From a virus, in the IMG/VR virus record IMGVR_UViG_3300044617_001063, positions 1 to 23,456 of that record: a stretch of DNA of 23,456 nucleotides. The stretch is one strand, 5' to 3'. Both the position numbers and the translations under genes were made by a program. Positions within the stretch are counted from its first letter, which is position 1, and every line of letters begins with the position of its first letter. The notes under the pieces were generated by a model. The model did not search any database, had not been told where the DNA came from, and was given only the letters and a program-made list of their open reading frames with translations. Positions 2,196-20,293 of the stretch are shown piece by piece.

Positions 2196-2354
2196 ATGAT
2201 CGTGCGAGTAGGTGGCACCGAGGCCGACATCAGAGTTGAGGCAATCCTGTCGATGCCTCGGCTAAGTTTCACCGCGAACCACTTCGCATGGGCTCAGGCG
2301 CTCATGCCTCTGGGGATTCGCCCGACTATGGGGACCGGCGCATTCTGGGGTTGA
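2196..2354 (+). CDS. Glycosyltransferase-like protein, N-terminal part (interrupted gene)
   Basis: This frame encodes 52 residues from ATG 2196 to an in-frame TGA at 2352-2354. GGAG lies 6 nt before the start. The sequence MIVRVGGTEADIRVEAILSM..PRLSFTANHFAWAQALMPLGI..GTGAFWG resembles the first strands and helices of a GT-A-fold glycosyltransferase. In similar proteins, as I recall them, FWG continues directly into Q..TRM.E. Here that continuation (QVNTRVMEQFIDKAEYLL) is found only after a 50-nt gap and in another frame. The break falls inside the conserved motif, so this is the front half of a gene and not an independent small protein. See the gap entry at 2343-2401. The family call rests on motif recall; no alignment was run. 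Confidence 0.6.
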   Translation: MIVRVGGTEADIRVEAILSMPRLSFTANHFAWAQALMPLGIRPTMGTGAFWG

Positions 2355-2401
2355 GCCCTCTGGCTAAATGCCAGGGGGCTCAACCCTAGGACAAATGCGA
2401 C
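2343..2401 (+). other. Coding gap with 22-bp hairpin; candidate translational bypass element
   Basis: After the codons TTC TGG GGT (Phe-Trp-Gly) comes TGA at 2352. The protein appears to resume at CAA 2402, leaving an apparent 50-nt gap (2352-2401) that shifts the frame. A stem pairs 2343-2364 with 2370-2391 around the loop TAAAT. It has 22 pairs, and its only three departures from Watson-Crick pairing (2344/2390, 2347/2387, 2359/2375) are all G-U wobbles. The stem includes the last sense codons and the stop. A plain -1 shift meets TAG at 2387, and +1 meets TAA at 2365, so single frameshifting cannot bridge it. No U-tract follows, so it is a poor terminator. The layout parallels T4 gene 60, but I see no landing codon matching GGU in the resumed frame. 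Confidence 0.6.
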
Positions 2402-18421: not shown

Positions 18422-19485
18422 TGCGTTGGCAAGACATGCCGGAAGGCAAGCGTAAGTATTCAGCCTATCTGTGCAGCCGTGAGTGGTCTGTACTGAAGGA
18501 GGCCGTTAAGGCCAGGAGCGGCGGCATTTGCGAGCGATGCTTAGTAAATCCAAGCGATCACGTCCACCATCTGACGTACGAACGGAAGTACGCCGAGCGT
18601 CTTGAAGACTTGCAGGACTGTTGCAAGCAGTGCCACGAATTCATACACGCCAAATCAGACTACGACCCAGCTGATGAGCGCCCGATTGTTCTGCCTTGGC
18701 GCGGCGAAATCGTTAAGTCTTTTTATCTTGCCGGAAAAATTACTGGCACGACTTGGCGGGATGAAATTGTTTCTGGGTGGTCCGAGGAGAATCACCGTGA
18801 TGCAGCGTACTGCCAAGCTTTTATTGACTACGACGAGTGCCTCCGATGGGCGATCGTTCCAAACGCTTGCGCAGCGTGCGGGGTTAATCTGCATTACACG
18901 GGGCCGTGGTGGAAGGACACTAAGGGATTGAATGGAGGACACGGCAGCTCCAGCAAGTCAGAACACCCGCACGGATACTTCTTAGCAGACAACTCCGTCG
19001 AGGAGTTTTATCAGTTCGCCCGCTTGCCTGAGCACTCAGATATACATGCGGCGCGCACTGAGGTTTCGCAAGCCGTTCAGTCGGCGATAGAGGCGGCCGA
19101 CCTTGTGTTCGCCTGGATCGACGGGCCGGACTGCTACGGCACGATCCTTGAGATCGGATACGCGAGGGCGATGGGCAAGGCCGTCGTGGTTGCATTTAGT
19201 GAGGACTTCGCTTCCACGAAGGCCGCGCACGAGATGTGGCTGCTGACAAAGTGGGGCTACTACCTTGAGGACAAAACCCCAAAGGAAGCGTGGGAGCAAT
19301 TTTGGCGGCTTGCAGAGTCCGAGAGTGGCCGCGATCCACGGCTGGCGAAGGTGCGCCAAATCAAGCACGCCTTGAAAAACAGAGAGGTGTCAGTAAGTGC
19401 GGCAGCTGTCCTGCTTGATCGCATGGCTGATGTTGCCAGGGCTCGCAACCTAGAGAGCGAGGAGAACCATGGCACGCAAGCCTGA
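18421..19485 (+). CDS. HNH domain fused to nucleoside 2-deoxyribosyltransferase-like domain
   Basis: The product has 354 residues. Residues 32-76 hold an HNH-type fold: C37xxC40, VHH at 48-50, a long linker and CCKQCHEFIH at 67-76. From residue 97 a second domain begins (KSFYLAGKITGTTWRDEI), followed by LHYTGPWWKDTKGLNGGHG and HPHGYFLADN (148-180). Then comes AADLVFAWIDGPDCYGTILE with IGYARAMGKAVVVAFS (215-250), matching the 'aDlv.a.ld..d..Gt..EiGyA...gk' core with E234 as the candidate catalytic Glu. CAAC at 140-143 may add a metal site. The C-terminal 80 residues are helical. Codons are richer in A and T than in neighbours, suggesting later acquisition. It could remodel nucleosides, act in DNA modification or in defence. 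No substrate can be inferred. Confidence 0.7.
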   Translation: MRWQDMPEGKRKYSAYLCSREWSVLKEAVKARSGGICERCLVNPSDHVHHLTYERKYAERLEDLQDCCKQCHEFIHAKSDYDPADERPIVLPWRGEIVKSFYLAGKITGTTWRDEIVSGWSEENHRDAAYCQAFIDYDECLRWAIVPNACAACGVNLHYTGPWWKDTKGLNGGHGSSSKSEHPHGYFLADNSVEEFYQFARLPEHSDIHAARTEVSQAVQSAIEAADLVFAWIDGPDCYGTILEIGYARAMGKAVVVAFSEDFASTKAAHEMWLLTKWGYYLEDKTPKEAWEQFWRLAESESGRDPRLAKVRQIKHALKNREVSVSAAAVLLDRMADVARARNLESEENHGTQA

Positions 19486-20293
19486 CAGTCACCACGTCCT
19501 TCCGTTGTTCTGCGATGACCTGATTGCGTCCTGCGTCGATATGACGCCGGCTTGCTTCGGGGCATACATGCGACTCCTCTGCTATGCGTGGACGCGTGGC
19601 GGCATACCAGATGACGAGGGGGCATGCGGCCGGATTGCTGGCGGGCTGGAGCCTGGCGACTGGGCAGCCATCCGGTCACGCTTGGTGCAGATCGCAGACA
19701 GATCGCAGTGCGATCGCACTGCGATCGCAAACGGATCGCAAACGGATGTCCGGCTGACCCACCCGAGGCTTGAGCTCGAGCGGCAGGCCGTCGAGGCCCA
19801 CAAGCAAAAGAAGTCAGAGGCCGGGAAAAAGGGCAATGACGCTAGGTGGGGATCGCAAACGGATCGCAAAACGATCGCAGAAGGTATCGCAAACGGATCG
19901 CAAACGGATCGCAAAACGATCGCCCCTAATCCTTCCCCTAGCCTTCCCGTAAGACAAGACAAAACACACACACAGGCCGAAAGCGAGTTTCGCCAGCCAG
20001 GCTGGGCAGCGGTCGAGTGGGAGCGTTTTGCCGAACGATGGAACCGCACCGAGAAGGCTGCGAAGTGGACCCCGCTTATTGCGCCGGCCGGCTGGGTTGA
20101 GAGAGCCTGTGACGGCAGCTGGATGGCGAAGGCAGACGAGGCCCTTCAGCGTCTCCCTGGCTGCCATTGGTTTGACAGCCCGTTGGCGGTCACCAGGTTC
20201 TTCGACTACGTCGACCGCATCTTGGCCGGCGAGTTTGACAACCCAAAGCAGGATGTAAGGCGAAAGAAACAGCCAGTAGGAGGGAACCTATGA
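19469..20293 (+). CDS. DUF1376-type replication initiation protein carrying origin-like iterons
   Basis: The product has 274 residues from ATG 19469, overlapping the previous gene by 17 nt. Residues 8 to about 90 (HHVLPLFCDDLIASCVDMTP, ACFGAYMRLLCYAWTRGGIP, DDEGACGRIAGGLEPGDWAA) match the DUF1376 domain found in phage replication proteins, a winged-helix that opens as 'p.y..d.l.....l...e.gaY..ll.~w..ggip.d'. The middle (about 72-155) is encoded by 11-bp DNA repeats and reads as GSQTDRKTIA-like units. The C-terminal part (FRQPGWAAVEWERFAERWN to FDYVDRILAGEFDN) is a small helical domain. It likely recognises the origin inside its own gene, as lambda O does. Confidence 0.75.
   Translation: MARKPDSHHVLPLFCDDLIASCVDMTPACFGAYMRLLCYAWTRGGIPDDEGACGRIAGGLEPGDWAAIRSRLVQIADRSQCDRTAIANGSQTDVRLTHPRLELERQAVEAHKQKKSEAGKKGNDARWGSQTDRKTIAEGIANGSQTDRKTIAPNPSPSLPVRQDKTHTQAESEFRQPGWAAVEWERFAERWNRTEKAAKWTPLIAPAGWVERACDGSWMAKADEALQRLPGCHWFDSPLAVTRFFDYVDRILAGEFDNPKQDVRRKKQPVGGNL
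19690..19751 (+). repeat. Iteron cluster 1: GATCGCA every 11 bp
   Basis: GATCGCA starts at 19690, 19701, 19712, 19723 and 19734, with a decayed copy (GATGTCC) at 19745. The spacing is exactly 11 bp each time. Bases 19701-19726 also form a perfect 26-bp palindrome centred on GCGATCGC. The period is not a multiple of three, so the conservation is at DNA level and not from a peptide repeat. Confidence 0.85.
19851..19924 (+). repeat. Iteron cluster 2: GATCGCAAACG repeats
   Basis: GATCGCA starts at 19851, 19862, 19873, 19896 and 19907, with variants TATCGCA at 19885 and GATCGCC at 19918. Steps are 11, 11, 12, 11, 11 and 11 bp. The cluster is followed by a pyrimidine-rich and then an A/C-rich run (19925-19975). 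Iterons next to skewed, easily melted DNA inside a replication gene are typical of lambdoid-style origins. Confidence 0.85.

Follow-up and report, generated by a model that had tools for sequence, protein, structure and literature searches.

How can one protein be made from a gene whose two halves lie in different reading frames, with every frame closed between them? This question is posed by a gene in the window, the whole 23,456-base stretch of DNA analysed here, which is an IMG/VR virus record of an HK97-type phage encoding a prohead protease, capsid, head-tail connector, tape measure, integrase, DNA polymerase beta clamp and RusA. The interrupted gene (the window gene) is conserved, is placed between capsid and connector, and belongs to PHROG 1574 (function unknown). 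Its product has no match in Pfam and its predicted structure (pLDDT 34) gives no usable fold; together with the PHROG assignment, these results do not bear out the label "glycosyltransferase" that a preliminary description of the locus had attached to it. Elsewhere in the window, the C-terminal part of an ORF at 18292-19485 matches nucleoside 2-deoxyribosyltransferase in Pfam and its N-terminal part is HNH endonuclease-like by eye, while GATCGCA repeats with 11-nt spacing at 19688-19927, within an ORF at 19469-20293, resemble iterons or protein-binding sites.

Exact ends of the gap in the window gene

The N-terminal half, ORF1 (2196-2354, plus strand as are the other parts of this locus), is preceded by a Shine-Dalgarno-like GGAG at 2186-2189 and comprises 51 codons up to a Trp codon at 2346-2348, which is followed by GGT and the stop codon TGA (2352-2354). 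The resumed frame, ORF2 (2399-2980; DQVNTRVMEQ...AWSVPQ), has 193 codons plus a stop. As previously described, all three frames are closed between the halves; the stops are TGA at 2352, TAA at 2365 and TAG at 2387. An ordinary terminator-like hairpin in the spacer between the capsid gene and the window gene (2147-2179) is found in phages with and without the insert alike and lies outside the mobile element. No relative of the ORF2 protein or of the element was found among annotated phage records.

An IMG/VR search with ORF2 yielded 80 close relatives from which the gap ends could be fixed. In 74 of these the gene is uninterrupted and reads TTC TGG, then GAC, AGC or TCN, then CAR, whereas six (L007, L012, L017, L023, L045 and L058) carry the same 50-nt insert as the window, which is also present in L084-L090 and L095. 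The insert thus spans 2349-2398, at TTC TGG/GAC CAA (here and below, a slash marks the insertion point), with a G at both ends that makes a 1-nt slide possible. Whereas ORF1 encodes M...GAFWG, the uninterrupted homolog L031 reads ...GTGAFW51-D52QV. Alignment to the uninterrupted homologs returned the same gap length of 50 nt, but moved its start three bases upstream: GGT (2349-2351) lies inside the gap, the last codon shared with the homologs, and thus the candidate take-off codon, is TGG (2346-2348) rather than the Gly codon GGT, and the first resumed codon is GAC instead of CAA. The misassigned take-off codon also explains why no GGN landing codon could be found at that time.

The 22-pair stem proposed earlier was recovered, with a 5′ arm at 2343-2364 that includes the Phe-Trp codons, the loop TAAAT at 2365-2369 and a 3′ arm at 2370-2391, in which 2387-2391 pairs with the TTC TGG codons. 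The 91-nt stretch that holds this hairpin has a minimum free energy of -57.5 kcal/mol (z = -10), and none of 200 shuffled sequences folded as well.

Hairpin inserts at seven sites in two genes

Carriers were collected using relaxed patterns, homolog scans, the whole contigs of 50 relatives and a covariance model, giving in total 62 distinct carriers. Their inserts (40 distinct sequences, 47-52 nt long) occupy seven sites, all within two genes; as the search patterns were built from the first carriers, these counts are biased and unrelated stems are under-sampled. The element-bearing phages are from freshwater. Related inserts interrupt the window gene, at FW/DQ or FW/SQ (empty form TTCTGG/GACCAA), in at least 12 further distinct sequences, as well as the gene for the terminase large subunit (Pfam TerL_ATPase plus TerL_nuclease) at six sites in 49 distinct interrupted sequences. 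The terminase sites are FRAEGL/NIHALL; FDEL/HAQ, where two elements with different stems occur; RRLW/DALRY (Trp/Asp), the commonest site with 29 distinct carriers; RYR/LNVW; YIEVP/KKNGK, which adjoins Walker A in L370 and has the empty form YIELP/KKQGKS; and, in a second terminase type (L274), AADR/DQAR. Empty homologs are known for all of them. The insert is 47 nt long at one site and 50, 51 or 52 nt at others, with all three of the latter length classes present at RRLW/DALRY. One terminase gene (L384) contains two elements, and both terminase and window gene are interrupted in L101/L204 and likewise on the contig of L429/L444. The whole contigs of the 50 relatives (3.49 Mb) held no elements outside these two genes. 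An assembly chimera was ruled out by the conservation and by the 62 distinct carriers from many samples.

No matches to Rfam were obtained at the gathering score for the window and four carrier loci, and full-text searches of an open-access library turned up no report of a phage element family like this one. Bacterial chromosomes were considered as another location of the element, but none of the pattern matches in genome contigs or of the covariance-model matches in 392 genomes from a single phylum interrupted a gene; they were chance matches, REP-like sequences or ordinary hairpins. The host is probably a planctomycete, since the nearest chromosomal relatives of the terminase belong to the same phylum as a Phycisphaerales genome (55-58% identity in five genomes), compared with at most 44% identity in the two other phyla sampled. 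In four genomes (G108, G146, G164 and G210) the terminase match falls into two pieces, ∼20-120 nt apart near residue 356, which could reflect ordinary divergence or another insertion.

Hairpins of other kinds were also seen. In a different phage group (L388, L390, L399, L401, L403, L407, L416, L427, L446 and L452), a conserved non-coding hairpin, GCTTRCGCCCC...GGGGGCGYAAGC, stands shortly upstream of an ORF; it is like the element's stem ends, yet interrupts no gene. L387 and L448 have two copies per contig of intergenic hairpins, CTGGCTTAAGCCC...GGGC.TAAGC, directly 5′ of coding sequence, and another virus (L171:11145-11360, L172:3408-3620) has tandem non-coding hairpins built on GGGTTGAGCGCGC that are unrelated to gene interruption.

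Every insert of the family opens with a hairpin of 16-17 pairs directly at the gap start. In 25 distinct hairpins, 399 of the 400 outer-16 pairs are formed, compared with 81.5% after permutation. Both sides of a pair change together even within one site, e.g., A-U, C-G and U-A at a single pair, and an alignment of 12 elements gave a covariation score of 0.344 vs. at most 0.095 for slid versions. The 448 pairs of 28 hairpins include 383 Watson-Crick and 63 G-U pairs vs. one A-C pair, and the sense strand folds better than the antisense strand in 28/28 hairpins, indicating that it is the mRNA strand that matters. Compensatory and G-U changes keep the hairpin intact at the RNA level. Selection on RNA structure had previously been read from the G-U pairs of the window stem; in L045, a T to C change at 2387 converts a G-U into a G-C pair.

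Protein continuity, codon copies and a candidate ribosomal bypass

None of the 40 inserts can be translated through in frame, and the protein sequence carries on across every gap. At RRLW/DALRY, 29/29 carriers have the flanking peptides LLFDELHAQRDRRLW and DALRYGGAAR, equal to those of empty homologs, and ORF2 is open over ∼340 codons at every gap length. Since gaps of 50, 51 and 52 nt occur at this one site with ORF2 open, a single frameshift cannot explain the expression of these genes, and neither can read-through, as no insert is open in frame; whatever acts at the gap is blind to the reading frame. dN/dS is 0.08 upstream and 0.12 downstream of the gap at RRLW/DALRY, 0.16 downstream of RYR/LNVW, and 0.11 for ORF2 of the window gene among carriers; four further values (GT up, T1 down, T2 down and T3 up) were left out as alignment artefacts caused by indels or non-coding DNA. 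Judged by this conservation on both sides of the gap, the interrupted genes look functional, which contradicts the decayed gene that had been offered as one alternative.

Could each interrupted gene instead encode two proteins, the hairpin ending the first polypeptide, re-initiation making the second and the halves assembling? Some sites do have a TGA shortly past the point where the gap begins, and in the window gene a GTG at 2417 is a possible start of ORF2, but most sites have no start codon near the resumed frame and several inserts lack a frame-0 stop altogether. The split would moreover have to be tolerated at seven positions, some of them within the terminase's Walker A and Walker B regions, and the residues just past the gap are as conserved as in non-carriers, so that we regard this explanation as very improbable.

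The gaps fall between codons at 7/7 sites. At five of these, at least one carrier has an insert whose final triplet is an exact copy of the preceding codon (TGG, CTG, CTG, CGG and CCG), and a sixth has a synonymous end triplet (CGG and CGT), the first two bases of the take-off codon being matched at six of the seven sites. The codon before the insert is invariant among carriers, while the copy at the six matching sites varies in its third base only (TGC, the form seen in the window and in most relatives, or CTA, CGA or CGT). The presumed landing triplet of the window, TGC at 2396-2398, accordingly matches TGG at two of three bases, and the related window-gene inserts of L098, L100 and L101 have an exact TGG...TGG. 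Both elements at FDEL/HAQ, despite their different stems, use CTG and CTG. Among the six sites other than AADR/DQAR, the stem by inspection runs into the take-off codon at five, with no such pairing at RYR/LNVW (alignment columns 1-2), and the insert tail tracks the take-off codon, with CAG or CGG opposite CTG, CCA or CCG opposite TGG, and CGG opposite CCG. In L391 (FRAEGL/NIHALL) a TAA directly precedes the codon copy in the resumed frame, and decoding there can therefore not restart upstream of the copy. When GGT in the window or GGC in the terminase Trp/Asp elements was taken as take-off codon, a codon-by-codon check gave no consistent landing codon.

We infer that it is the ribosome that skips the insert; rather probably, the 50 nt are one member of a family of mobile mRNA hairpins which are bypassed in a manner similar to T4 gene 60. 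The ribosome would decode up to a codon X (Trp, UGG, in the window), where a very stable hairpin that includes X would occupy the A site with its base. Peptidyl-tRNA would then release and the hairpin be skipped, whereupon the tRNA would re-pair 47-52 nt downstream with the copy of X, or the mostly matching triplet, that ends the insert, and decoding would restart at the codon after this landing triplet. We favor bypass because the gap is exact, recurs at seven sites, has its hairpin on the sense strand, preserves protein continuity, respects codon phase with codon copies at its ends, and has spread together with its flanks. Of the preliminary description, the bypass reading is thus the best supported and its comparison with T4 gene 60 is apt; GGT as take-off codon was wrong.

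Several sequence features count against bypass. At RRLW/DALRY, inserts end in AGA (19), CGC (8), CGA (1) or TGA (1), triplets that match UGG at the middle base only (TGA also at the first), and codon re-pairing offers no good explanation for this unmatched landing; the window copy itself ends in TGC. A frame-0 stop right after take-off, a feature of importance in T4, is not general: it forms the gap's second codon in the window gene and in part of two terminase sites, and elsewhere it lies later in the insert or, in several inserts, is absent. A common nascent peptide likewise seems to be missing: upstream residues are the same in non-carriers, a comparison which finds carrier-specific peptides and is blind to a signal common to all homologs. 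No phage-encoded tRNA able to help landing was found. We hold the assignment to the T4 type with reservation, because adjacent stop and nascent-peptide signal are, as tested, not general.

The unmatched triplets at the terminase Trp/Asp site would be accounted for if the hairpin, held in the A site or mRNA channel, positioned the downstream codon by geometry, with no landing pairing and with the codon copies as remnants of insertion; the gap also stays near 50 nt while hairpin and tail lengths trade off. Such a geometric version appears very improbable to us, as it would reduce the codon match at five or six of the seven sites to a coincidence or a fossil, and gap length differs by 1-2 nt at a single site.

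Upstream flank and horizontal spread

In the 45 nt before the gap, third codon positions are more conserved in carriers than in non-carriers at all five well-sampled sites (0.96/0.79, 0.85/0.67, 0.97/0.66, 0.96/0.69 and 0.86/0.68), mostly returning towards baseline farther upstream, and the effect is weaker downstream of the gap. Recent co-transfer accounts for part of this conservation. At FRAEGL/NIHALL, however, the stem has diversified while 36 upstream bases are unchanged, which points to a nucleotide-level function of the upstream stretch. A universal 5′ stem-loop was not found: a strong upstream stem-loop is clear at one terminase site and partial at a second, the other sites being less structured than, or near, non-carriers, and this restriction to one or two sites would again count against bypass.

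The constrained third positions could also be an exon recognition sequence, if some host or phage activity removed the 47-52-nt hairpin from the mRNA and ligated the exons. Such RNA excision, which would define a new class of mini-introns, seems unlikely to us, though less so than the other alternatives; we give the same weight to its specific form, in which an unknown bacterial or phage activity would recognise the stem plus ∼40 nt of upstream exon. Excision would explain why gap length is free at one site (50, 51, 52), would need no matched landing codon at the terminase Trp/Asp site and would account for the sense-strand hairpin. It does not predict gaps between codons at seven sites that end with a copy of the preceding codon, and neither a conserved 3′ boundary sequence nor a match to an Rfam family was found. 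Inserts of 47-52 nt are too short for self-splicing introns, and we know of no comparable bacterial activity.

How the element spreads is indicated by further carriers from the pattern search, several of which have a clearly different ORF2 type (FEQFIDKCEY...) with an identical insert. The block identical between ORF2 types comprises ∼100 nt upstream, the insert and ∼11 nt downstream, with similarity dropping on either side, and L109 and L110, which are of the second type and have no insert, differ from carriers over exactly that block. Thus, the element moved between lineages together with its upstream flank. We infer spread by homing-like gene conversion. In L370 (1-1467, minus strand), an intein-like insertion that contains a LAGLIDADG endonuclease domain lies in the terminase Walker A motif (GK/ALAIDTPIPTPDGW...), with the hairpin element five codons upstream of it. 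A link between the T4 gap and protection from a homing endonuclease has been reported (PMC5009743), and by analogy we hypothesize that, within conserved motifs, the elements may serve to mark homing sites or to block them.

Horizontal transfer along with flanking sequence, the 3-nt direct repeat and hairpin ends that resemble one another at several sites (G[GC]TT..GCCCC) are also what one would expect from a DNA mobile element, i.e., a palindromic MITE with a 3-bp target duplication which either inactivates genes or is excised from DNA prior to expression. We consider this very improbable: the symmetry of a DNA palindrome or MITE was not seen, given the G-U bias, which makes the RNA strand matter, and the stabler sense strand in all 28 hairpins; an essential terminase is interrupted in 49 distinct sequences; and purifying selection acts on both sides of gaps flanked by identical peptides. 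Excision from DNA is unlikely since none of the empty copies among the homologs examined bears the carriers' distinctive flank.

Comparison with known bypass systems

To our knowledge, T4 gene 60 was for decades the sole example of efficient bypass of a long gap in bacteria. The 62 natural variants at seven sites described here amount to a natural mutagenesis of stem, gap length and landing codon which shows what features matter. If the proposed mechanism is true, bypass elements would be mobile and recurrent in essential phage proteins of low copy number, not a curiosity; should the RNA be excised instead, the finding would be a larger one. Gene callers split the interrupted genes, and such terminases are probably annotated as broken.

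Few cases of bypass are known (reviewed in PMC5009743). The insert that interrupts T4 gene 60 is a mobile passenger, the gene being intact in relatives, and its take-off stem-loop includes the take-off codon, with a stop adjacent (PMC5009743); sliding in T4 is highly processive only for gaps of up to 56 nt (PMC11194080). The elements described here share with it a gap of ∼50 nt between codons (47-52 nt, under the T4 limit), a take-off/landing codon repeated at most sites, a stem-loop that includes the take-off codon, the stop near take-off in the window gene, uninterrupted relatives and spread along with flanking DNA (PMC5009743, PMC11194080). In contrast to T4, the genes are terminase and a conserved gene of PHROG 1574, the take-off codons are TGG, CTG, CGG or CCG instead of GGA, the stem is much longer and more stable, no nascent peptide is shared, the stop does not always adjoin take-off, and there are many sites rather than one, with landing unmatched at one of them.

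Two further systems resemble the family in part. Mitochondria of Magnusiomyces capitatus have 81 byp elements, which are likewise many mobile short hairpin inserts in protein genes, skipped at translation, and at times have imperfectly matched take-off and landing codons (PMC5009743), whereas the present elements reside in double-stranded DNA phages whose bacterial hosts have normal ribosomes, possess GC-rich stems and involve no unused A-site codon. A putative bypass in Streptomyces phage Hau3 also affects a phage terminase gene, but the gap there is far shorter and associated with a UUA codon, and no family of hairpin elements has been reported for it (PMC5009743).
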